Source: Caminibacter pacificus
GTDB taxonomy: Bacteria; Campylobacterota; Campylobacteria; Campylobacterales; Nautiliaceae
Direction: 5' to 3'
Assembly: GCF_003752135.1 (NCBI RefSeq)
Contig: NZ_RJVK01000004.1
Location: 1 to 64,000 of the forward strand
DNA: 64,000 nucleotides
Under the pieces are notes generated by a model. The model did not search any database. It was not told the DNA's origin and was given only the letters and a program-made list of their open reading frames with translations. This document shows positions 32,132 through 46,184 of the stretch, piece after piece. The translations under genes were made by a program, and so were the position numbers. Numbering within the stretch: position 1 is the first letter of the stretch; every line of letters starts with the position of its first letter.

Positions 32132-32593
32132 ATGAAAATAGAAGATTATCTCAAACTTTTTGAAGAAAACCCTTATGTTTCTGTTATTTTGTATAGAGAA
32201 AAGATAATTTATGCAAATAAGACTTTTTGTGATTTGATAGGAATGAGCAAAGAGGAGATAATTAAAATCGCTCCGGAGGATGTGTTTCCCGATGAAAATT
32301 TAAGAAAAAAAATAAGAGAGACAATAAACAGACGCTTAAAAGGAGAGGTCTTTCACACTCCTTATCCTCCTCTTGAAATAGTCACTAAAAATAAAAAAAG
32401 AACTTATATAAAGTTTTTGTCTCAAACAGTCGAATACGAAGGAAAATATGCCGGTTTGGCTATTGCTTTGAATGTTAGCGAGGATGTGAAAAAAAACTTT
32501 TTAATCGATATTTTGAAAGATATCAACCAGACGATAATTACAAAAGAGAGCGAAAAAGAGATTTTTGAAAACATAGCCGAAAATATTCTATAA
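32132..32593 (+). CDS. Fragment 1: PAS sensor domain
   Basis: 153 residues starting at an ATG behind GGAGGAG. It carries one PAS domain (VILYREKIIYANKTFCDLIGMSKEEI ... VEYEGKYAGLAIALNVSED) and the start of the next linker, where it stops at TAA (32591-32593). The following domain continues in another frame, so by itself it would be a PAS-only protein. Confidence 0.5.
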   Translation: MKIEDYLKLFEENPYVSVILYREKIIYANKTFCDLIGMSKEEIIKIAPEDVFPDENLRKKIRETINRRLKGEVFHTPYPPLEIVTKNKKRTYIKFLSQTVEYEGKYAGLAIALNVSEDVKKNFLIDILKDINQTIITKESEKEIFENIAENIL

Positions 32594-32612
32594 AAAAGGC
32601 GCTTTTGAGTGC

Positions 32613-33860
32613 GTGTGTATTTCTATTCGTAATGAAGAAACTAATATGATGGAGCCTAAGTATTGCCGGGGGAATTTTGATGAAAAGTTGTCTTTAAAAA
32701 TAAGAGAAAATCTAAAAGCAGATGAAAAATACAAAAATCGATGTAGTGCTGTAAAATATCTGCTTGATGATGAATTTTTGGTGATAAATTCTATTGAAGA
32801 GTTTAACTTTGTCAATGAGGATATTAAAAAAGATTTGTTAAGCAAAAACTACAACTCAATACTCTTTTTCCCTATTAACAAAGAGGGGAAAATATACGCT
32901 TCAATCGGTGTTTGTTCCAAATATGTCGATGATTTCGATAGTAAAACGCTTGCGATTTTCGAAGAAGCCAAGCAAGATATAGAGTTTGCTCTCAAAAAGA
33001 GCGAAAATATGACCTATCTGAAACTTTTACAAGAAGCTCTTGATAAAGCTTATTCGTGGGTTTTGATAACGGATGAAGACGGAAAAATTTTATATGCGAA
33101 CAAAAGCGTTGAGGAGGTGAGCGGTTATAGTTTTTCTGAGATTTTCGGAAAAACTCCGAGTGTTTTTAAATCCGAATATCACAACGAAGAGTTTTATCAA
33201 AAGCTTTGGAATAAAATATCAAACGGCGAAATTGTAGAAACTACTCTCATAAATAAAGACAAATACGGTAAATCTTTTTATCTAAAAACCAAAATAATTC
33301 CGCTTTTGGCTCCGAACGGGAAAAAATATTTTATTTTTTTGGCGCTTGATATAACTCACGAAAAGAAACTCCAAAACAAACTCAAAAAAGACCTGATTAC
33401 CGGACTTTTAAATAGAAGCGAGTTCGTAAAACTCCTAAAACAAAAACTAAACGATAATAAATACGCACTGATAATTGTGGATTTGAGAGACTTTAAAATA
33501 TTCAATCAATTAAACGGAAACGCGCAAGGTGACGCGCTTTTAAAAGATATGGCAAAACTCCTCAAAGAGACCTTTTCAAACGCATTTATTTCGAGAATAG
33601 GAGGTGATGAGTTTGCCGTTTTGACCGAATATTCGAGTAAAAACGAAATTACTGCTTCAATAAATAGGCTGATGCACAAAATAAAACATCTAAGAAACTT
33701 TCATAATAAAATCTCCGCAAACGTTGGAATAGCATTGTATCCAGAGCATTCGAAAGATATTGTAAAACTGATAGAAAAAGCGTATCTTGCGCTGGAGATT
33801 GCAAAACAAAAAGGAGATTTCGCGAGCGAATTTTTTAGCGAAGATATCAGAAAAAAATAG
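32613..33860 (+). CDS. Fragment 2: GAF-PAS-GGDEF
   Basis: 415 residues from a GTG with no clear ribosome site, so the frame is probably a continuation rather than an independent gene. The order is a GAF-like domain (VINSIEEFNF ... ILFFPINKEGKIYASIGV), PAS (WVLITDEDGKILYANKSVEEVSG) and GGDEF with the active-site SRIGGDEFAVL. The canonical GGDEF suggests the cyclase was functional. It ends at TAG immediately after AAAAAAA. Confidence 0.5.
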   Translation: MCISIRNEETNMMEPKYCRGNFDEKLSLKIRENLKADEKYKNRCSAVKYLLDDEFLVINSIEEFNFVNEDIKKDLLSKNYNSILFFPINKEGKIYASIGVCSKYVDDFDSKTLAIFEEAKQDIEFALKKSENMTYLKLLQEALDKAYSWVLITDEDGKILYANKSVEEVSGYSFSEIFGKTPSVFKSEYHNEEFYQKLWNKISNGEIVETTLINKDKYGKSFYLKTKIIPLLAPNGKKYFIFLALDITHEKKLQNKLKKDLITGLLNRSEFVKLLKQKLNDNKYALIIVDLRDFKIFNQLNGNAQGDALLKDMAKLLKETFSNAFISRIGGDEFAVLTEYSSKNEITASINRLMHKIKHLRNFHNKISANVGIALYPEHSKDIVKLIEKAYLALEIAKQKGDFASEFFSEDIRKK

Positions 33861-33883
33861 AAGAATACTCGGACGTAAAAGAG

Positions 33884-34615
33884 TTGATAATAAAAGCTAT
33901 TAAGAAAAACGCTTTTGTGTATCATTTTCAGCCTTATGTAGATGCAAAAAGTTTTGAGATAGTGGGGGCTGAAATACTTTTGAGGATTGATTTGAACGGC
34001 AAACTGATTTATCCGGACGTTTTTATAGATTTTGCCGAAAATAGCGGCTATATTAAGGAGATTGAAAAAATAATGTTTCCTAAATATATCGAATATCTAA
34101 AAAAACTCGATATATCTCTTTCTTTTAATATCTCCGGAAAATCTCTTAGTGATGAAAAACATATCAAAACTCTTTTTAGAGAATACGAAAATTTGCCGGT
34201 TATTATAGAATTGACAGAGCGCGAAATAGCCGGAAATATCGAATATACGAAAGAAATTTTCAGTTTTTTTAAACAAAAAGGCTTTAAACTCTCAATCGAT
34301 GACTTCGGTACCGGGTATTCGTCACTTACATATCTCAAAGATTTACCGGCTGATTTTATAAAAATTGATATGTCATTTATTAAAAATATAGAAAATTCTA
34401 CAAAAGATTTGGCTATTGTAGAAACGATAATAAACTTCGCTCATAAATTCGGGTTAAAAACGGTTGTTGAGGGAGTAGAAACAAAAACGCAAGTGGAAAT
34501 ACTACAAAAACTTAATGCAGATTGTCTTCAGGGATACTATTTTGCAAAACCAATGCCGTTTGAAGAGTTAAAGGATTTTTTGAACAAGTGGAGACAACGG
34601 GACTCGAACCCGTGA
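33884..34615 (+). CDS. Fragment 3: EAL phosphodiesterase domain
   Basis: 243 residues from a TTG, the EAL domain alone. The signature is GAEILLRID (EIL in place of EAL, metal-binding Glu kept), with IDDFGTGYSSLTYL, IKIDMSF and EGVET all conserved, so c-di-GMP hydrolysis is plausible. The last nine codons (ending RQRDSNP) are the antisense of the tRNA-Ala 3' end and are not native EAL sequence. Confidence 0.5.
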   Translation: MIIKAIKKNAFVYHFQPYVDAKSFEIVGAEILLRIDLNGKLIYPDVFIDFAENSGYIKEIEKIMFPKYIEYLKKLDISLSFNISGKSLSDEKHIKTLFREYENLPVIIELTEREIAGNIEYTKEIFSFFKQKGFKLSIDDFGTGYSSLTYLKDLPADFIKIDMSFIKNIENSTKDLAIVETIINFAHKFGLKTVVEGVETKTQVEILQKLNADCLQGYYFAKPMPFEELKDFLNKWRQRDSNP

Positions 34616-34753: not shown

Positions 34754-34789
34754 AAATGGTGCGGGAGAGAGGACTCGAACCTCCACGCC
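34754..34789. repeat. Left attachment site (truncated tRNA-Leu copy)
   Basis: A 36-bp sequence identical to 42981-43016, the 3' end of the intact tRNA-Leu gene plus three flanking bases. Only the T-arm and acceptor part of the tRNA is present here, followed by unrelated sequence, so it is the displaced core site at the integrase-proximal end of the element. Confidence 0.9.
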
Positions 34790-34949
34790 GTATTTTTCAT
34801 TGATTTTCTTTCGTTTGATTTTACCCCGTATTTTAGGGCTTTTTGGAAATTATTTTTTGATATGATATACTTTGATTTGATATGAAATAGCTAAAAAACG
34901 GACACCCAAGAGGACACCCGGCGGGGTGGAGGCAGAATGGAGGCAAGCA
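34790..34949. other. Left end of element: integrase leader and arm-type repeats
   Basis: Non-coding. It contains TTGATATGATATAC and TTGATTTGATATGAAAT as direct partial repeats (about 34856-34888) that could hold the int promoter. The motif ACGGACACC then GAGGACACC (34894-34918) nearly repeats one at the right end (42911-42935). The int ribosome site is TGGAGG at 34938-34943. Confidence 0.5.
34894..34918. repeat. Left copy of paired GGACACC motif
   Basis: Two GGACACC heptamers 12 bases apart, embedded in a 25-base segment that matches 42911-42935 at 22 positions in the same orientation. Its position just inside the attachment core, and its absence from the middle of the element, suggest integrase arm-type or excisionase binding sites. 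Confidence 0.6.
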
Positions 34950-36041
34950 ATGGCTATCAATTCAAAAGAGTTTAAAAGTATAGGTTTAGCAAATATCAAA
35001 CAGCATAAAAAAGATAAGCTGAAATTTTTATTTGATTTTAGAGTCAATGGTAAAAGATACAGAAAGGTAGTGACTTTACAAGAACGTCCGAATTGGAGTT
35101 TGAGAGAGTATAAAAAAGAGCTGGTTAGTATGCTTAATCAATATAGGGAAGATATTTTAAGCGGATATAAACTCAATGAGACGTTAAGCGTTGATGACGT
35201 GTTTGAACTATATGTGAAAAATAATCCCGTATCTGAGAATTGGGATAACAAAAGACGCAGGATATATAACTTATACCTCAAAAACGAAATAGGCAGAAAG
35301 AAAATAGGCAAGGTAAAAGAGATTGACTTATTACAAATTCTTACGGCTCTTAAAGATAAAGGCTTGAAAAGCACTACAAGAAAAAGAGTGCTTGATGTTA
35401 TTAAGCCCGTGTTTAAATTCGCTCACCGCAATAAAATTATCAAAGAAAATCCGGCAGAGAATATCAACGTAAAAGTAAAAGATACTAAAAAAATGGTAAC
35501 GAATGCCGGAGAAAAGCTAAAAAAAGTATATACCGGCATAATGGAAGTATTTGCCGACGACCCGTTTTACAGGGCTTTATTTTTATTCGCTCTTACAGGC
35601 AGAAGAAAAAGTGAAATACTCAATTTAAAATGGGAACATATTGATTTTGAGAATAATTACTATTGGATAGCTGATACTAAGCCGAATGAAAATCAGCGTT
35701 ATGACCTGCCGCCTATTATTAAGCTGGCTCTGCTTGAGTTAGGTCCAAAAGCAAGCGGCTATGTGTTTGAAAGTCCGGTAAAAAAAGGTAAGCCTATAAA
35801 TAAAATCGATAGACAGGTGGATAAATTAAAAGAGCATATCAAAATGCCTGAATTTCATATGCACTACTGCCGTAATATTTTAACGTCCGCCCTGCTTGAA
35901 AAAGGCGTTTCCACATCTATTTTATCCGGCGTATTAGGGCATAAGAACGCAACGACTATCAATAAGTATGTGAGTATCAATTATCACGCCTCTACCCAAA
36001 AAGCAAATCAGGAAATGCTTGAAATAATAGAGCCGAAATAA
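34950..36041 (+). CDS. int: Tyrosine recombinase integrase of the tRNA-Leu element
   Basis: About 363 residues. The N-terminal part has an arm-binding-like strand region (LKFLFDFRVNGKRYRKVV), then a SAM-like core-binding domain (VDDVFELYVKNNP...) and the C-terminal catalytic domain. The catalytic residues are Arg in LTGRRKSEILNLKWEHID, His-x-x-Arg in MHYCRNILTSALLE, His in LSGVLGHKN and Tyr in INKYVSI. I chose the ATG at 34950 (TGGAGG six bases upstream) over a GTG at 34926. It lies 160 bases from the left attachment core and points into the element, the usual position for tRNA-targeting integrases. Confidence 0.92.
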   Translation: MAINSKEFKSIGLANIKQHKKDKLKFLFDFRVNGKRYRKVVTLQERPNWSLREYKKELVSMLNQYREDILSGYKLNETLSVDDVFELYVKNNPVSENWDNKRRRIYNLYLKNEIGRKKIGKVKEIDLLQILTALKDKGLKSTTRKRVLDVIKPVFKFAHRNKIIKENPAENINVKVKDTKKMVTNAGEKLKKVYTGIMEVFADDPFYRALFLFALTGRRKSEILNLKWEHIDFENNYYWIADTKPNENQRYDLPPIIKLALLELGPKASGYVFESPVKKGKPINKIDRQVDKLKEHIKMPEFHMHYCRNILTSALLEKGVSTSILSGVLGHKNATTINKYVSINYHASTQKANQEMLEIIEPK

Positions 36042-36244: not shown

Positions 36245-36451
36245 ATGAAAACGGCTCAAGTTTATTTTGAAGACAATATATTTGAGCAACTACAAAAAGA
36301 AGCTCAAAAGAGAAATATTACTATATCTGAACTTATACAGGAATTAGTGCAAACGAGCATTAAGAAAAAACCCGCTTTTGATAAAATGGTTGGAATTTGG
36401 AAAGATAAAAATATTGATATTGAAGAAATTAGAAAAAAAGCGTGGAGATGA
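36245..36451 (+). CDS. RHH-type antitoxin of the element
   Basis: 68 residues: KTAQVYFEDNIFEQLQKEAQKRNITISELIQELV is a ribbon-helix-helix domain, followed by a tail (FDKMVGIWKDKNIDIEEIRKKAWR) of the sort that wraps VapC toxins. It overlaps the toxin gene. A TA pair directly after int would stabilise the element in the host. Confidence 0.78.
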   Translation: MKTAQVYFEDNIFEQLQKEAQKRNITISELIQELVQTSIKKKPAFDKMVGIWKDKNIDIEEIRKKAWR

Positions 36452-36819
36452 TTTTATTAGATACAAATATATTAATTGAGATATTTAAAGGAAATGAAAG
36501 CATTGCTACAAAATTAAGCTCTTTAGATGAGGACTTTGCAATTTCATCTATTACGCAAATGGAACTTTATTATGGAGCTTTTAACAAGAGGGAAATTCAT
36601 CAGCTTGATAAATTTTTATCAGACTTTTATATTTATCACTTAACCCCGGCTATTTCTATAAAAGCAGTGGAGCTTATCAAAACATACTCTAAAAGCCATA
36701 ATTTGAACCTGCCTGATGCTCTTATAGCTGCTACAGCTATTATAAAACAAACGCCTCTTATTACTCTTAATTTGAAAGATTTTAAATATATTGATGAATT
36801 AGAAATAATAACTATATAA
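36448..36819 (+). CDS. PIN-domain VapC toxin of the element
   Basis: About 123 residues with all PIN acidic motifs: ILLDTNILIEIF, ITQMELYYGAFN, LNLPDALIAATAI and TLNLKDFKYI. The ATG at 36448 overlaps the antitoxin stop as ATGA; a GTG two codons earlier (36442) is the alternative. The sequence is close to classical VapC, more so than the toxin at 6040. Expected activity is site-specific tRNA or rRNA cleavage. Confidence 0.83.
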   Translation: MILLDTNILIEIFKGNESIATKLSSLDEDFAISSITQMELYYGAFNKREIHQLDKFLSDFYIYHLTPAISIKAVELIKTYSKSHNLNLPDALIAATAIIKQTPLITLNLKDFKYIDELEIITI

Positions 36820-36835: not shown

Positions 36836-37777
36836 TTAAATATCTTCCACCTCATCCTTGAACTTGAGTAACTTCTCTATTATCTTATCTTTAAACGCAG
36901 GCGGGGCGTATTTTAGCAGTTCGCATATCTGTTTGTCTTTTGGGTCGGTTGGGGCTGGGATACTTTGGGATTTTTCAAATTTTCCAATTTTAAATTGATA
37001 ATGTTTTATATTTTCTTTTGTTAAGGTAATACCTTGTTGAAGTAATGTATTAAAATTTATTAGTATTTGTGCTTTTATATCGTGTATTTCTTTTATAGTT
37101 ATACCTATATTCCCTAAATCAGTAGCAACGATTAAATTTAAGTTTTTTATAAAATCAAATAAATTGAGATTATCAAAATTTTTTAATATATATTCAATAA
37201 CATTTTTTTCAAAAAAATCTTTAGGATTAAAAGTATTGATAGCGACAACCGCTATTATTTGAGATATAAGACATTGTTTATATTTGTCTTCTTTCAAATT
37301 TTTTAAAATTATTTCTTCTTCTTTATCAGAATTTATAAAATCTATCTCTATGTCTTTATAGCAATTAATTAAATTATTAAAAGATAATGGTGACGAGTTT
37401 GAATTTACGATAAAATTAGTGTTTTTATTAAAATAATTAAATACTAATTCTGATAAAAATATTTGATAGTCTTTTTTAGTAATATCAAAATTTAAGAAAT
37501 AAAGTAATAGTCTAAAATTTTTGCTAAATTTAGTTAATAAATGCTGTTTCACATATTTTTCACTTATATCTATATCTATGTCTACATTAAAAATAGAACT
37601 ATCTATTCCATACAGAGCAGAGATGCCTTGGATATACTTTATTCTTTCATTGAAATCCAATTTGCCTTTCTCATATCTTTCAATTGTGGTTGGGGAAACT
37701 TCCAAATATTCAGCAATTTTTTTTCTGCTATATCCTAAATCTTTTCTTAATCTTTCTAAAAGCTCATTTTTTTTCAT
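36836..37777 (-). CDS. XRE-family repressor of the element
   Basis: About 313 residues. The first 65 hold a Cro/C1-type helix-turn-helix: LLERLRKDLGYSRKKIAEYLEVSPTTIERYEKGK. The long remainder is helical, with no LexA-like Ser-Lys protease motif. Derepression by self-cleavage is therefore not indicated, and an antirepressor or a helper phage protein would be needed. The ATG at 37777 follows AAAGGAG; the 32-residue extension upstream is rejected. It is divergent from the excisionase-like gene across an operator region, the classic genetic-switch layout. Confidence 0.8.
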   Translation of the reverse strand: MKKNELLERLRKDLGYSRKKIAEYLEVSPTTIERYEKGKLDFNERIKYIQGISALYGIDSSIFNVDIDIDISEKYVKQHLLTKFSKNFRLLLYFLNFDITKKDYQIFLSELVFNYFNKNTNFIVNSNSSPLSFNNLINCYKDIEIDFINSDKEEEIILKNLKEDKYKQCLISQIIAVVAINTFNPKDFFEKNVIEYILKNFDNLNLFDFIKNLNLIVATDLGNIGITIKEIHDIKAQILINFNTLLQQGITLTKENIKHYQFKIGKFEKSQSIPAPTDPKDKQICELLKYAPPAFKDKIIEKLLKFKDEVEDI

Positions 37778-37792
37778 ATTTCTCCTTTTATA

Positions 37793-37833
37793 ATACAAGG
37801 ATAATTTTGTATCATACAAAAAATATGATACAA
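37793..37833. promoter_or_regulatory. Operator region of the element switch
   Basis: TTGTATCATA (37807-37816) and TATGATACAA (37824-37833) are a perfect 10-bp inverted repeat with a seven-base spacer. A further half-site ATACAA is at 37793-37798. They lie between the divergent repressor and excisionase-like genes and should be the repressor's binding sites. Confidence 0.7.
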
Positions 37834-37885
37834 TACTTTTGTAATCATATAATACCAAAAAACACACCACCACAAAGGAGTGAAA

Positions 37886-38149
37886 ATGAATAGAGCGGAA
37901 CTGCTAAGTCAGCTTGGAGTAGATGAGGTGCAAAGACTTATGGCTGAGGCAATTAAAGGTATGGTGAAAAAAGAGTGGTTAACGCCTGAGGAACTGCAAG
38001 AGGAATACGGCATAAGCATTCACGCACAAAACAGAATGAGAATGGAAAGACGCATTCCATACAGCAAAGTCGGGAAATTCATCAGATACAAAAGGAGCGA
38101 GATTGAAAAATGGCTTGAAGACCACAAAATCGAAATGGTAGGCGGGTAA
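37886..38149 (+). CDS. Excisionase/AlpA-like helix-turn-helix protein
   Basis: 87 residues. The C-terminal two-thirds is a MerR/HTH_17-type winged helix: WLTPEELQEEYGISIHAQNRMRMERRIPYSKVGKFIRYKRSEIEKWLEDH, the pattern of excisionases and AlpA regulators. In satellites and phages these proteins drive excision or activate int. The ATG at 37886 follows AAAGGAG and is the first rightward gene after the operator. Its stop overlaps the next ATG by one base (TAATG). Confidence 0.78.
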   Translation: MNRAELLSQLGVDEVQRLMAEAIKGMVKKEWLTPEELQEEYGISIHAQNRMRMERRIPYSKVGKFIRYKRSEIEKWLEDHKIEMVGG

Positions 38150-38867: not shown

Positions 38868-39106
38868 ATGAAACTATCTGTCATATTGATAGAACGGCTA
38901 AAAATATTGATATTGCCCTTAGGTTTTTGGGTGAAAAAACGGACAGGCTGAGTGAATTATTAAAGATATTTGATGAAAAATGTGAGATGAAAGATGAGGT
39001 TATAGCATTCGATGAGGTTGTGAATGATATTAACGAGCTTTATGAACTGCTTAACAATCTAAGTGAAGAATTGAAAGAGCAAATATTATCATTGGAGGGG
39101 AAATAA
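38864..39106 (+). CDS. Small acidic coiled-coil protein of the element
   Basis: 80 residues, strongly acidic and helical (LSELLKIFDEKCEMKDEVIAFDEVVNDINELYELLNNLSEELKEQ), predicted coiled coil, not recognised. It overlaps the upstream gene by ATGA and the antirepressor gene by one base, and contains the ribosome site GGAGGGG for it. Confidence 0.6.
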   Translation: MNETICHIDRTAKNIDIALRFLGEKTDRLSELLKIFDEKCEMKDEVIAFDEVVNDINELYELLNNLSEELKEQILSLEGK

Positions 39107-39885
39107 TGGAAATCAAAGTATTCAATAATCACCAATTCGGAGCGGTAAGAGTTTTAAAAGATGAGGCAGGTGAACCTTGGTTTGTAGCAAAAGACGTCGC
39201 AACTATACTTGGATACAAAAGACCGGCAGACGCTATTAGACAATTAGTGGATAAAGAAGACAAAGGGGTCGGTAAAATACCGACACCCGGTGGAATGCAA
39301 GAGATGACTATTATTAACGAAAGCGGTTTTTATGCGTTGGTTTTCAATAGTAAACTCCCACAAGCCAAAAAATTCAAACGCTGGGTAACAAATGAAGTAT
39401 TACCGGCAATTAGAAAACACGGCTTATACGCCACAGATGAAGTAATAGAAAAGACTTTAAATAATCCTGACTTTATGATTGAGATTTTACAAAAATTCAA
39501 AGAGGAAAAGCAAAAGAGGATAGAACTTCAACAAGAGCTCCAGCAAAACCTGCCTTATATAGTTTTTGCTAAGCAGGTAGAAACTTCCAAAACTTCAATC
39601 AAAATAAGAGAATGGGCGAAAATCATAAGCAAGAGAGGCTATACAATAGGTCAAAACCGGCTTTTTAAATGGCTAAGGGATAACGGCTATCTTATGATAA
39701 ATAATGAGCCGTATCAGGCGTATATAGACAGGGGATATTTTGAAGTTAAAACCAAGGCAATTCATACGCCTACCGGGGAAAAACAGGTTAAGACAACCTA
39801 TGTAACTTCAAAGGGTCAGGTGGCGTTGACTGAAAAAATTATCGAATATTTAAAAGCAAAAAAAGCGGCTTTACAAGCTGGATGA
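39106..39885 (+). CDS. Phage antirepressor (BRO-N plus KilAC)
   Basis: 259 residues in two domains. The BRO-N domain (about 1-110) has VFNNHQFGAVRVLKDEAGEPWFVAKDVATILGY, INESGFYALVFNSKLPQAKKFKRWVTNEVLPAIRKHG. The KilAC/ANT domain (about 160-259) has REWAKIISKRGYTIGQNRLFKWLRDNGYL and KTTYVTSKGQVALTEKI. Such proteins bind DNA or phage repressors and turn on lytic programmes. In an element lacking virion genes, the likely targets are its own XRE repressor or that of a helper phage. Confidence 0.88.
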   Translation: MEIKVFNNHQFGAVRVLKDEAGEPWFVAKDVATILGYKRPADAIRQLVDKEDKGVGKIPTPGGMQEMTIINESGFYALVFNSKLPQAKKFKRWVTNEVLPAIRKHGLYATDEVIEKTLNNPDFMIEILQKFKEEKQKRIELQQELQQNLPYIVFAKQVETSKTSIKIREWAKIISKRGYTIGQNRLFKWLRDNGYLMINNEPYQAYIDRGYFEVKTKAIHTPTGEKQVKTTYVTSKGQVALTEKIIEYLKAKKAALQAG

Positions 39886-40090: not shown

Positions 40091-41332
40091 ATGAGAGAGT
40101 TTATAACGATAAGGCAAAAAGCCTTTTATGAGTTTCTAAGTGATTATAACAAAGATAAGCCAAAAGAGCAACAGATATGGCTGGATTTAAAAGATATAGC
40201 TATATTTGAATATATAGCTCAGTTATGCACCACAGAACACAAAAAGATTAAACAAAGCAGAATAATCATCAACGATACGGAATATACTCATATAGCTTAC
40301 AAAAAGATTATTGAGGATAATCCGCTTTTGAATATTTCCACTAAAAGACAGATGTTAAGGATAATTGAAAAACTGCAAAAATTAGGCTTAATTAGAAAAT
40401 ATTTTGCATTAGAAAAAGGCAGTAAAACATACTTCACCTTAGGACATACAGGTCTTACCCTTACGACATCAATGTCCGAGGTGGTAGGACATCAAAGTCC
40501 GACCCCTTTCGACACGAATGTCTTACCCCCTAAGACATCAATGTCTGACAATAGTAAGTATAATATAGATAGTTATAATAGTAAGAATAAAATAGAAAGA
40601 ATTAAATATATATACGCAAATCTTTCTTTTTTTGAAAAAAAACTTTTTATTCTCTTAGGAAACTTACAAAAACATTTTGAAACTTATAATCTAAAAGTTA
40701 ACACCTATAAGAAACATTTAGAAGTATTTAGGGGATTATCATCTAAGTATGAAGAAGTAGAACTCATAACGGCTATATATGCAAGAGCTATTAAGGCAAT
40801 AAGAGAGACAAGCGGTAGTCAGTTAAAGACAATAGCAAATCCAAACTTCCTAAAAGCAAGTATGGAAGACTTACTATTAGAGGCTAAAGAGTTTATGGAA
40901 TATGAGGATTTAGGTGAGGATAGTATTGAAACTGAGTTTTATTTTATGGCTGATACGGGAACATATTTGAACTTTTATAGTGAGATAGACAGATACTCAG
41001 GAGAATTTATAGACAAATCTGGTAATGCGATAAATATTTCAACGTTAGAGGAAGACATATTCTTAATGAGAGAGTATTTAAAGCAGTTTGGTATTGAGCT
41101 TATAAGTGAAATAAAATCTGATACTTTAGACGATGCAATTAAAAATATTCCTTATGAAATAATGGTCGGTAGATATTTTCACTCTCTTTTAGATGAGGAA
41201 CTTTTAAAACATTGGTATGGTATTAAAACCCTTGATGATTTTGTGAATTTTTATAATGAATATTTAAAAACAAAAAAAGTAAATTACAAAGACTTAAAAC
41301 TTCAATTAATGGAAAAAGTCTCAATCAAATAA
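40091..41332 (+). CDS. Replication-initiator-like protein with internal origin
   Basis: 413 residues. The N-terminal 120 residues read as a winged-helix DNA-binding domain (NISTKRQMLRIIEKLQKLGLIRKYFALEKGSKTYFTLG). A low-complexity linker (about 118-165) follows. The C-terminal 240 residues are helical and could recruit a helicase or loader. The linker DNA holds five palindromic 12-mers spaced 22-23 bases apart and then an AT-rich stretch, as in lambda O, where the origin lies inside the initiator gene. No catalytic Rep, primase or ATPase motif is seen, so O-like initiation by host helicase recruitment is the inferred mode. Confidence 0.65.
   Translation: MREFITIRQKAFYEFLSDYNKDKPKEQQIWLDLKDIAIFEYIAQLCTTEHKKIKQSRIIINDTEYTHIAYKKIIEDNPLLNISTKRQMLRIIEKLQKLGLIRKYFALEKGSKTYFTLGHTGLTLTTSMSEVVGHQSPTPFDTNVLPPKTSMSDNSKYNIDSYNSKNKIERIKYIYANLSFFEKKLFILLGNLQKHFETYNLKVNTYKKHLEVFRGLSSKYEEVELITAIYARAIKAIRETSGSQLKTIANPNFLKASMEDLLLEAKEFMEYEDLGEDSIETEFYFMADTGTYLNFYSEIDRYSGEFIDKSGNAINISTLEEDIFLMREYLKQFGIELISEIKSDTLDDAIKNIPYEIMVGRYFHSLLDEELLKHWYGIKTLDDFVNFYNEYLKTKKVNYKDLKLQLMEKVSIK
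40443..40545. repeat. Five iterons inside the initiator-like gene
   Basis: The repeats are GACATACAGGTC (40443), GACATCAATGTC (40465), GACATCAAAGTC (40488), GACACGAATGTC (40511) and GACATCAATGTC (40534). Starts are 22, 23, 23 and 23 bases apart, about two helical turns. Each is an imperfect palindrome of GACAT-N2-ATGTC type. A 23-base period is not a multiple of three, so the repetition is at DNA level and not a protein repeat. Confidence 0.85.
40546..40660. other. AT-rich unwinding element next to iterons
   Basis: From 40546 the sequence is almost only A and T for about 70 bases (TAAGTATAATATAGATAG, then AATTAAATATATATAC), followed by T- and A-runs. It adjoins the last iteron, matching the order iterons, then DNA unwinding element, of the lambda and plasmid origins. 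Confidence 0.6.
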
Positions 41333-42910: not shown

Positions 42911-42935
42911 AAAAACGGACACCTTTGAGGACACC
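42911..42935. repeat. Right copy of paired GGACACC motif
   Basis: A 25-base segment with two GGACACC words, matching 34894-34918 at 22 of 25 positions in the same orientation. It ends 45 bases from the right attachment core. Confidence 0.6.
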
Positions 42936-42980: not shown

Positions 42981-43016
42981 AAATGGTGCGGGAGAGAGGA
43001 CTCGAACCTCCACGCC
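42981..43016. repeat. Right attachment site (in tRNA-Leu)
   Basis: A 36-bp perfect match to 34754-34789. It covers the tRNA-Leu 3' acceptor strand, CCA, T-arm and edge of the variable arm, plus three downstream bases. Integration therefore rebuilt an intact tRNA. Confidence 0.9.
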
Positions 43017-43068
43017 TTGCGGCACCAGATCCTAAGTCTGGCGCGTCTGCCAGTTCCGCCACTCCCGC
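42984..43068 (-). tRNA. tRNA-Leu(UAG), integration target
   Basis: An 85-base class II tRNA on the minus strand with a long variable arm (TGCCGCAAGGCGT). The acceptor GCGGGAG pairs with CTCCCGC; the anticodon arm is CCAGA-CTTAGGA-TCTGG (anticodon TAG). CCA is encoded. Its 3' 33 bases are shared with the left attachment site. Confidence 0.95.
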
Positions 43069-43535: not shown

Positions 43536-46184
43536 TTATGTCAAGATTTTTTGGGAAGATTTTTTAAAAAGATTTTGTAATTTATTTAGAGGTAGAGGTT
43601 TTGAGTATAAAAATCCTTGAATCAGGTCGCAATTTAGTTCTTTTAAGGTTTTTTCTTGTGCTTTTGTCTCTACTCCTTCGGAAATGGTTTGCATATTGAA
43701 TTTATTTGCGAAATCGAGGATTATTTCGAAGATTTTTTTATCGTTTTCGGATGAATTGATATTTTGTACGAAATCTTTATCTATTTTTAGGATATCTGCA
43801 TAAAGGTTTTTTAGGTATTTAAAAGATGCGTAACCGCTGCCGAAATCGTCAATTGCTATTTTAAAACCTTTTTCTTTTAGTTTTTTAAAAATTTCGAAAC
43901 TTCCGTCAACAAGTAATCTCTCGGTAACCTCTATAGTTATATTTTCTTCTATACCTTTAAAAAAAGAGATAATATTTTCAACGTGTTTTTTGTCTTTTAG
44001 TGAGGTTGATGAGAGATTAAAAGATATTGGTATTTTTATTTTTCTTGCGGTATCGGCTAATTTTTTTAGCATTTTTTGTTCTATTTGTTTGATTATTCCG
44101 CTTGTTTCGGCGTAAAGTATGAAGCTTTCGGTACTCATTTGGGTGTTTTTTATCCTCAAAAGCGCTTCCGCACCTATGAATTTTTTTTGTTTAAGAGAGT
44201 AATAAGGTTGGAAATAGTATTCGAAATCGTCGTTTTTTAGAGCTTTGTTTATGGCGCTTTTCGTTTTTATATATACGGTTAGGCTATGCGAGAGGCTCGG
44301 GTTGTATATTTCAAAGCTGTTTTCGTTTTGTTTTGCTATGTGAAGTGCGATTGAGGAGCATTCAAGCAGTCTTTTCGGGGTGTAGGCGTGTGAGAAATAA
44401 TAAGCGATTCCGATATTTACGGAAGGGTTGTACTCCGGAAAAGTCAGGTTTTTAATTTTTTCTATTATTTGCTGGGCGTGGATAATTATTTCGCTTTCGT
44501 TGTTAAAAGGTATAAAAAGTGCGAATTCGTCGTTTCCTATTCTTGAGGGTAGATAGTTGGCAAAATTTTCTTTTAATATGTTTGCGATGTTTTTTAGGAC
44601 GATGTCTCCGAATTTCGAGCCTTTTATTTTATTAATGATTTTGAAGTCTTTTATGTCTATAAGTAAAAGGGCGTATTTTTGGTTCGGATATTCTTCTATG
44701 ATTTTTTTCGATTTTGTCAAAAATCCGTCTCTATTCAAAAGAGCCGTTAAAGAATCGAGGTATTGTAAATCGCTTATTTTCGCTTCGAGTTCTTTTTCTT
44801 TTGTAATGTTCATACCAAGGGAGACGAAGAAGTAGTTGTCGTTTACTTTTACGGGAACTATTCTGTCTTTTAGATAAAAAAGTGTACCGTCTTTGCGTTT
44901 GTTTATTATTTCCGTTTCGAAAACTTCACCTTTTGTGACCGTATTCCATAATTTTTTGTAAAACTCTTTATTATGTAGTCCCGATTTGAATATATTTGCG
45001 TTTTTGCCTATAAGTTCGTCTTTTGAGTAGCCGCTTAACTTAAATACTACGTCGTTTGCATAAAGGATGTTTCCTTGTTTGTCCGTTATTACTACCCATT
45101 GAAAACTTTTTTCAACCGCTTCTTTTAGGATAAATAAAATATTAGTAATAGTGATGTTTTCTATAGCTTTTTGGATATTCGTACTGATTTCGGTAAGAAT
45201 TTCCGTTGTCGATGAATCGAAGTCGTTTTTGTATTTTGAGAAAATATCGATAGTGGCAATGAGCTTTTTGTTTATGACAATAGGCAAAGATATCAACGAT
45301 TCGTAATCTTGAGGCGGTTTTTGAGGGTTGTTTATGAGATTCAAAGTCGCATCGATAAAAAGCTTTGATTTTTTAATAGTTTGAACGCACTTTTGCAAAA
45401 GTGTCAGTTCATTTTTTTCTTCAAGCAAAATTTTATTTATATCCGAAATCAATTTAAGAAGCATTTGGTGTTTAATCTCTTTGGTTTTATCTATTGCGAG
45501 TAAAAACCCGGCGTAATCGTGGTCGTAAAGGATTGTTTGGGAGAAAAACTTAAGATGTCTGCGGCTGTTGTTTAGGCTTTTCGTTTCTACTTCTACGAAA
45601 TTAAAAAACTCTTCCCCTCTTAATCTTTTTTCGACGACTTTGTTTATTTTTTCTTTGAATTTATCAGGAAGAATATCGGTAGGGTTTAGGGTACATATGG
45701 TTTTTTGGTCGGTTTCTAATATGTCGCAAATAGTTTTGTTGGCGTAAATGAATTTGTTTTTGTATATCAAAACCCCGATATGAGGGGAGTTTTGGAGCGT
45801 GTTGTATATTTGAACGAGCTCTTCTTCTTTGCTGATATCTATACCTATTCCGAGAATCGTGTAGATGTTGTCGGTTTTGTCTATTACTTTTAGGATGTCT
45901 TTGAAAAAATGATATTTGCCGTTTTTGTCTTTGAATTTATATTTTAATACGAAAGTTTCTTGTTTTACTAATTTGGGTAGATTTTTTATAAGAGACTCTT
46001 TGTCTTCTGGGCTTAGGTTTTGAAGACATAGGTCTTTATTGAACTCTTCTGCGGAATATTGGGTGTAGTTTCCGGATTTTAGGAGTTTGAACTCCAATAG
46101 TTCCGCTTTTTCGTTTTCAATTTTTACACGTGTGATGTATGTTGTGGTGGGTAAGAGTTTGGAAATTTCGTTTTGTAAATCCAT
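43536..46184 (-). CDS. PAS-PAS-GAF-PAS-GGDEF-EAL regulator
   Basis: 882 residues, no membrane helix. Domains in order: PAS (about 1-130), PAS (about 135-255), GAF (about 260-350), PAS (about 355-475), GGDEF (about 480-635), EAL (about 645-882). The cyclase signature is SRIGNDEFALF (GNDEF, second Gly lost), which may weaken cyclase activity. The EAL site keeps EALLR, IDDFGSGYASFKYL, LKIDKDF and EGVET, so phosphodiesterase activity is likely. It is an intact paralogue of the broken gene at 32132-34615. It follows fliI by 11 bases and is probably in the same transcript, which suits control of motility by c-di-GMP. Confidence 0.87.
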   Translation of the reverse strand: MDLQNEISKLLPTTTYITRVKIENEKAELLEFKLLKSGNYTQYSAEEFNKDLCLQNLSPEDKESLIKNLPKLVKQETFVLKYKFKDKNGKYHFFKDILKVIDKTDNIYTILGIGIDISKEEELVQIYNTLQNSPHIGVLIYKNKFIYANKTICDILETDQKTICTLNPTDILPDKFKEKINKVVEKRLRGEEFFNFVEVETKSLNNSRRHLKFFSQTILYDHDYAGFLLAIDKTKEIKHQMLLKLISDINKILLEEKNELTLLQKCVQTIKKSKLFIDATLNLINNPQKPPQDYESLISLPIVINKKLIATIDIFSKYKNDFDSSTTEILTEISTNIQKAIENITITNILFILKEAVEKSFQWVVITDKQGNILYANDVVFKLSGYSKDELIGKNANIFKSGLHNKEFYKKLWNTVTKGEVFETEIINKRKDGTLFYLKDRIVPVKVNDNYFFVSLGMNITKEKELEAKISDLQYLDSLTALLNRDGFLTKSKKIIEEYPNQKYALLLIDIKDFKIINKIKGSKFGDIVLKNIANILKENFANYLPSRIGNDEFALFIPFNNESEIIIHAQQIIEKIKNLTFPEYNPSVNIGIAYYFSHAYTPKRLLECSSIALHIAKQNENSFEIYNPSLSHSLTVYIKTKSAINKALKNDDFEYYFQPYYSLKQKKFIGAEALLRIKNTQMSTESFILYAETSGIIKQIEQKMLKKLADTARKIKIPISFNLSSTSLKDKKHVENIISFFKGIEENITIEVTERLLVDGSFEIFKKLKEKGFKIAIDDFGSGYASFKYLKNLYADILKIDKDFVQNINSSENDKKIFEIILDFANKFNMQTISEGVETKAQEKTLKELNCDLIQGFLYSKPLPLNKLQNLFKKSSQKILT

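Follow-up and report, generated by a model that had tools for sequence, protein, structure and literature searches.

The replication origin of the small element integrated at a tRNA-Leu gene in the window analysed here (the whole 64,000-nucleotide stretch of DNA from Caminibacter pacificus, a hydrothermal-vent member of the Nautiliaceae) is very probably of the O type and lies inside the element's own initiator gene, 40091-41332. In the mechanism that we propose, the N-terminal winged helix of the initiator would bind, probably with one dimer per palindrome, five iterons spaced by 22-23 bp and encoded by the protein's own linker; the array of bound protein would strain the adjoining AT-rich DNA (40546-40620) and lead to its opening, and the helical C-terminus would bring in the replicative helicase or primase, either from the host or from a helper phage. 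Excision at the att repeats in tRNA-Leu would be under the control of the integrase, the HTH_17 protein, the repressor and the antirepressor, which would also switch the replicon on once the element is out. The array, the AT-rich stretch, the predicted domain layout, the att repeats, the joint exchange and the recurrence of such arrays in phage initiator genes are seen in the sequences; binding, melting, recruitment of a helicase, excision, induction and a possible need for a helper phage are inferred. In-gene iteron origins as such are already known, from phage lambda (O) and from some staphylococcal plasmids (RepA_N initiators); what is unusual here is the small exchanged cassette, the host group and the fact that no loader gene was recognised, and such origins would be extended to small integrated elements of deep-sea Campylobacterota.

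The integrated element

The element, of 8,263 bp, is integrated at tRNA-Leu between 36-bp direct repeats and carries the following features:

34754..34789, no strand assigned: attL, a 36-bp direct repeat that copies the 3' end of tRNA-Leu and recurs exactly at 42981-43016
34926..36041, + strand: tyrosine integrase (PF00589, E 6e-17; PHROG_1, E 6e-40)
36245-36819: pair of RHH and PIN-domain genes, VapBC-like toxin-antitoxin
36836..37873, - strand: XRE-family (HTH_3) regulator, probable repressor, divergently transcribed (HTH_3, E 1e-6; PHROG repressor families)
37880..38149, + strand: small HTH_17 protein, AlpA/excisionase-like (PF12728, E 4e-10; phrog_66, excisionase and regulator, E 5e-7)
39106..39885, + strand: BRO-N/KilAC antirepressor (PF02498, E 1e-29; PF03374, E 5e-25; phrog_130, E 1e-88)
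40091..41332, + strand: putative replication initiator gene, 413 aa (AlphaFold model, structural matches, PHROG replication-initiation families of its relatives)
42981..43016, no strand assigned: attR, the other copy of the 36-bp repeat, located where tRNA-Leu(tag) (42984-43068, - strand) has its 3' end

The element further encodes small ORFs; on the + strand, between 41332 and attR, the only ORF of at least 60 aa encodes 63 aa and has no family match. Neither structural phage genes nor a lambda-P-like helicase loader gene were recognised in the element, though a loader that escapes recognition is conceivable, and no convincing defence genes were found by PADLOC. Phage satellites in the broad sense are described as elements of 7-20 kb with att repeats, an integrase, genes for regulation and replication, and no structural genes (PMC13376191); the element combines its 8,263 bp with att repeats, an integrase and regulation and replication genes, without structural genes, and by its gene content it is a putative satellite.

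In two more genomes of this family, related elements are found at a tRNA-Met; the element of G002, a genome of the same genus, is bounded by a 29-bp repeat, and at the position of the RHH/PIN pair the G002 element has other small gene pairs. Operator-like repeats of the TGTATCATACA / TATGATACA type lie at 37787-37850, between the divergent repressor and HTH_17 genes. Matching AAAAACGGACACC repeats occur near the two ends of the element (34894-34906 and 42911-42923), together with GGACACC doublets, and are likely integrase arm sites; a similar end repeat is present at both ends of the G002 element. The element and the tRNA cluster are flanked by PAS/GGDEF/EAL-type genes of similar sequence (32132-34615 and 43536-46184). 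The same tRNA-Leu cluster is found in a related genome (L037, G001:C1:152000-168000), where small patches resemble the right end of the element and a weak integrase match lies about 10 kb away; probably another element occupies the same tRNA-Leu site in G001. No clean empty att site was obtained, the tRNA-Leu of G001 being seemingly occupied.

Iterons and AT-rich DNA inside the putative initiator gene

The five 12-mers reported by an earlier sequence-only reading start exactly where it had placed them (40443, 40465, 40488, 40511 and 40534), and their measured spacings of 22, 23, 23 and 23 agree with the period of 22-23 bases that it had claimed. They are of the type GACAY-N2-RTGTC and, as a set, imperfect palindromes, two of the five being perfect and three carrying one mismatched pair; the tract that follows them is given in the last line:

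40443..40454, no strand assigned: iteron 1, GACATACAGGTC
40465..40476, no strand assigned: iteron 2, GACATCAATGTC, perfect
40488..40499, no strand assigned: iteron 3, GACATCAAAGTC
40511..40522, no strand assigned: iteron 4, GACACGAATGTC
40534..40545, no strand assigned: iteron 5, GACATCAATGTC, perfect
40546..40620, no strand assigned: candidate DNA unwinding element, of low stability, kept in G002 though the iterons differ

With at most one mismatch, GACATN2ATGTC occurs at seven sites in the 64-kb window, five of which are the iterons; the shuffled window contains on average 1.1 such sites, and none of 100 shuffles reaches seven. No more copies of the iteron palindrome were found elsewhere in the element, which has a single, in-gene set; three successive degenerate sites occur at this locus only among 397 Campylobacterota genomes, and the search in Campylobacterota turned up no homologue that shares these iterons.

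That the repeats arose by chance, or are a purely coding feature of the low-complexity linker, is hardly credible. The linker would tolerate repeats because it is predicted to be disordered; this explanation is, however, already contradicted by the shuffle, frame, core/spacer and recurrence comparisons. When the gene was shuffled 1000 times by synonymous codons and 1000 times by codon order, five copies within 130 bp were never obtained; the iteron cores are 82% identical to each other and the spacers 38%, and arrays recur in other linkers (see below). The copies occupy three reading frames and therefore encode no protein repeat, as had been argued before, although TSMS is encoded by copy 2 and again, 69 bp on, by copy 5.

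The AT-rich stretch was said to follow the array directly, and indeed the GC content, 30% in the gene as a whole and 48% in the iterons, falls to 16% over 40552-40621. Of all 70-bp windows in the element, 40545-40614, directly beside the last iteron, is the least stable, with runner-up windows, inside or next to the repressor gene, that come close (-66.9 vs -67.0 kcal/mol). The range originally proposed, 40443-40660, is slightly long and resolves into the iterons at 40443-40545 and an unwinding candidate at about 40546-40620. Both iterons and adjoining AT-rich tract lie within the putative initiator's own gene, the iterons encoding residues 118-152, just past the wing into the linker, and the AT-rich DNA residues 153-177.

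The putative initiator protein, its relatives and known replicons

The expected layout of winged helix, linker and helical C-terminus agrees with an AlphaFold model of modest confidence (mean pLDDT 64, to be taken as a guide only), in which a winged helix at about residues 9-126 (pLDDT mostly 70-90) is followed by a disordered linker (127-178) and by a helical C-terminus of lower confidence. When the winged-helix model was compared with known structures by VIA-align, the top four matches were 4pql (Z 9.6), 4pt7 (9.4), 4ro3 (8.9) and 5kbj (8.7); RepA_N entries scored 9.6, 9.4, 8.9, 8.7 and 8.0 and MarR-type winged helices 8.0-8.4, a lead of about one Z unit that amounts to a near-tie. This RepA_N-first ranking, obtained with a predicted model, is suggestive and no proof of family. 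Among these entries, 4ro3 is the RepA of PLE, a satellite initiator that is structurally a RepA_N protein (PMC7145576).

In sequence searches, the initiator matched neither Pfam Phage_rep_O nor Pfam RepA_N (PF06970) at E up to 1; its only PHROG match was a weak one (phrog_270, E 0.03), tblastn of phage and plasmid collections gave no match and a direct sequence search of the PDB nothing useful. A profile search returned generic winged-helix regulators only and was set aside. The C-terminal domain alone, a model of moderate confidence, had no convincing match in the PDB, a result that says nothing about its fold, and the helicase-recruiting step is for this reason unsupported.

More was gained from distant relatives. 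As a simple period test missed unevenly spaced arrays, a palindrome-copy test was used instead. By this test three relatives from Campylobacterota or viral contigs (L011, L013 and L015) have significant palindromic arrays of their own in the same linker, the palindromes being TCGGA-A/T-TCCGA in L011 and L013 and CGGAWATAAATCCG in L015; in L008 and L009 repeated palindromes are visible and fall below significance, and in L001 and L010 the array is not significant. L009, L010, L011, L013 and L015 match the PHROG annotations 'replication initiation O-like', 'replication initiation protein' or 'DnaD-like helicase loader', L009 matching the O-like phrog_345 at E 2e-5. L001 comes from a viral contig that is also present in an assembly from this genus of Nautiliaceae, and has a DnaB_C-type ATPase two genes downstream and an ERF gene upstream. 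L012 was dropped, its sole match being an unrelated long helicase-like protein, and L014, with no usable gene, was left out. At L020 (G012:C63), a short stretch that matches residues 165-233 of the initiator and is interrupted by two in-frame stops is apparently a decayed copy.

The same association appears when the DNA pattern is searched blind. Three copies of GACAYNNANGTC, separated by gaps of 9-13 bp, were sought in 2.9 million viral contigs, on DNA only and with no protein information, and 35 stretches were found, several of them near-duplicates; most arrays lie in the middle of an ORF just past a winged-helix region, and in about one third no ORF of 100 aa covers the array. Ten representatives, distinct, with clear ORFs and picked by eye, all match replication-initiation PHROGs. 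Control scans with a non-palindromic pattern (8 matches) and with another palindrome (15) retrieved exclusively in-frame protein repeats or 12-bp tandem arrays, and none of these matches lies in a winged-helix phage initiator gene. As the representatives all match initiator families and the control matches include no such gene, the GACAY-type site is recurrent in phage initiators; the array pattern alone, searched blind in viral DNA, recovers replication-initiator genes, and such a search could aid the annotation of unknown phage replicons. The GACAY-type arrays of the viral contigs L045, L055, L060, L064, L065, L070 and L072, which no ORF of 100 aa covers, are possibly noncoding origins or other sites.

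It appears improbable that the gene encodes a transcription factor and that the palindromes are operators, for its product or for the element's repressor, with no function as an origin. MarR-type winged helices do score nearly as high structurally and the element encodes other DNA-binding regulators; yet the relatives and the genes of the blind scan match replication-initiation families, no 12-mer array is present near the divergent promoter at 37.8 kb, and five sites deep in a coding linker, with the element's minimum of duplex stability right after them, are better accounted for by an origin. The role of initiator that had been assigned to the gene is supported by the PHROG families of its relatives, by the structural leads to the Rep proteins of pSK41 and pTZ2162 and to PLE RepA, and by the joint exchange described below. 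The label 'lambda-O-like' holds for the mechanism; as a statement of family it is unproven, the N-terminal structure pointing equally to RepA_N.

In lambda the origin lies in the middle of gene O, where several inverted-repeat iterons are followed by an AT-rich tract and the DNA is bound by the N-terminal part of the protein (PMC7466680, PMC6022878). The element resembles lambda O and its lambdoid relatives in having iterons and an AT-rich tract inside the initiator gene, and differs from them in its five 12-bp palindromes (four of 18-19 bp in lambda), in the lack of a Pfam Phage_rep_O match and of a recognised P-like loader gene following the initiator, and in a longer C-terminus with no recognised fold. 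In pSK41 Rep, a RepA_N protein, the origin is central within rep and the linker is dispensable, and in pPR9, a natural chimera, the DNA-binding domain has been exchanged in one block with the origin (PMC5703833). Within the near-tie noted above, the N-terminal domain scores highest against the RepA_N initiators of pSK41 and pTZ2162 (Z 8.0-9.6); unlike them, the present protein is unmatched by PF06970 and belongs to an integrated Campylobacterota element rather than to a Firmicutes plasmid, and for its C-terminus, modelled at low confidence, no match to the DnaD-like C-terminal domain of Rep was found.

PLE, a phage satellite of Vibrio cholerae, has a RepA_N-type initiator, RepA, which acts with iterons and contains no primase or helicase (PMC7145576); it too is a small integrated element, with an N-terminal fold matching ours (4ro3, Z 8.9), but its origin is noncoding (NCR3) where the one proposed here is in-gene, and it has a large serine recombinase in place of a tyrosine integrase. 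PICIs and PICMIs are likewise small and integrated, with an integrase, an AlpA/HTH_17-like gene, a replication gene and no structural genes (PMC6092414, PMC10803314), a set also found here, with no recognised structural genes; theirs, however, include a primase-type gene, and none was seen in the element. The PICI origin is located 3' of the rep gene and has two iteron sets flanking an AT-rich region (PMC6092414), in contrast to the single in-gene set described here, and the origin is therefore not of the PICI type.

Exchange of a putative specificity cassette

Alignment of the initiator genes of the window and of G002 delimits a segment in which both DNA and protein identity drop:

40335..40545, + strand: putative exchangeable specificity cassette, comprising the predicted recognition helix, the wing and the iterons (drop in DNA and protein identity vs G002)

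The DNA is 97% identical over 40091-40334, 62% over 40335-40436, 51% over 40437-40545 and again 97% over 40546-40620, so that the cassette, at 50-62% overall, stands between sequences of about 96-97% identity on either side. The proteins are 96% identical before the predicted recognition helix, 51% over helix and wing, 23% over the iteron-encoded linker, 96% over the linker encoded by the AT-rich DNA and 90% over the first part of the C-terminus; beyond the cassette they are mostly 90-96% identical. Within it, G002 shares more residues with the distant G015 (59% and 34%) than it does with the window (51% and 23%), in comparisons that are small (39 and 35 columns). G002 and G015 have in common iterons of the TATCAYT type with a period of 23-24 bp, as opposed to the GACAY array of the window. 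Since iteron types and residue identities agree, the putative reader module and the sites it would read moved together and the candidate melting region stayed; as judged from these sequences, the predicted DNA-reading part is exchanged along with its putative DNA sites.

The same comparison bears on the proposal that another protein (a host factor, the repressor or the antirepressor) binds the 12-mers to regulate replication while the initiator binds elsewhere. Such a role for one of the several DNA-binding proteins encoded by the element is conceivable and seems to us very improbable, as the iterons change with the initiator's predicted recognition helix and wing, against a background of 97% identity both at the start of the gene and in the AT-rich DNA. 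An O-type origin read by its own initiator is the preferred reading, and the two genes constitute a natural experiment, in which two close initiators differ in their predicted DNA-reading elements and in the matching DNA sites; given this paired difference, origin specificity is directly testable by a 210-bp exchange.

A broader proposal, which we regard as possible rather than probable, is that vent Campylobacterota harbour a lineage of minimal integrated elements in which about 210 bp holding recognition helix, wing and iterons recombine as a unit, changing replication specificity in one event while the melting region and the remainder of the winged helix are untouched, and in which the C-terminus recruits a helicase with no loader gene. 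Two other differences from G002 were observed. A second diverged block, at 41081-41290 in the C-terminal part of the initiator, has 57% DNA identity between flanks of 88-93% and is possibly a partner-interaction module; the antirepressor (39106-39885) differs mainly in its N-terminal BRO half, its C-terminal half being nearly identical, in an apparent further module exchange.
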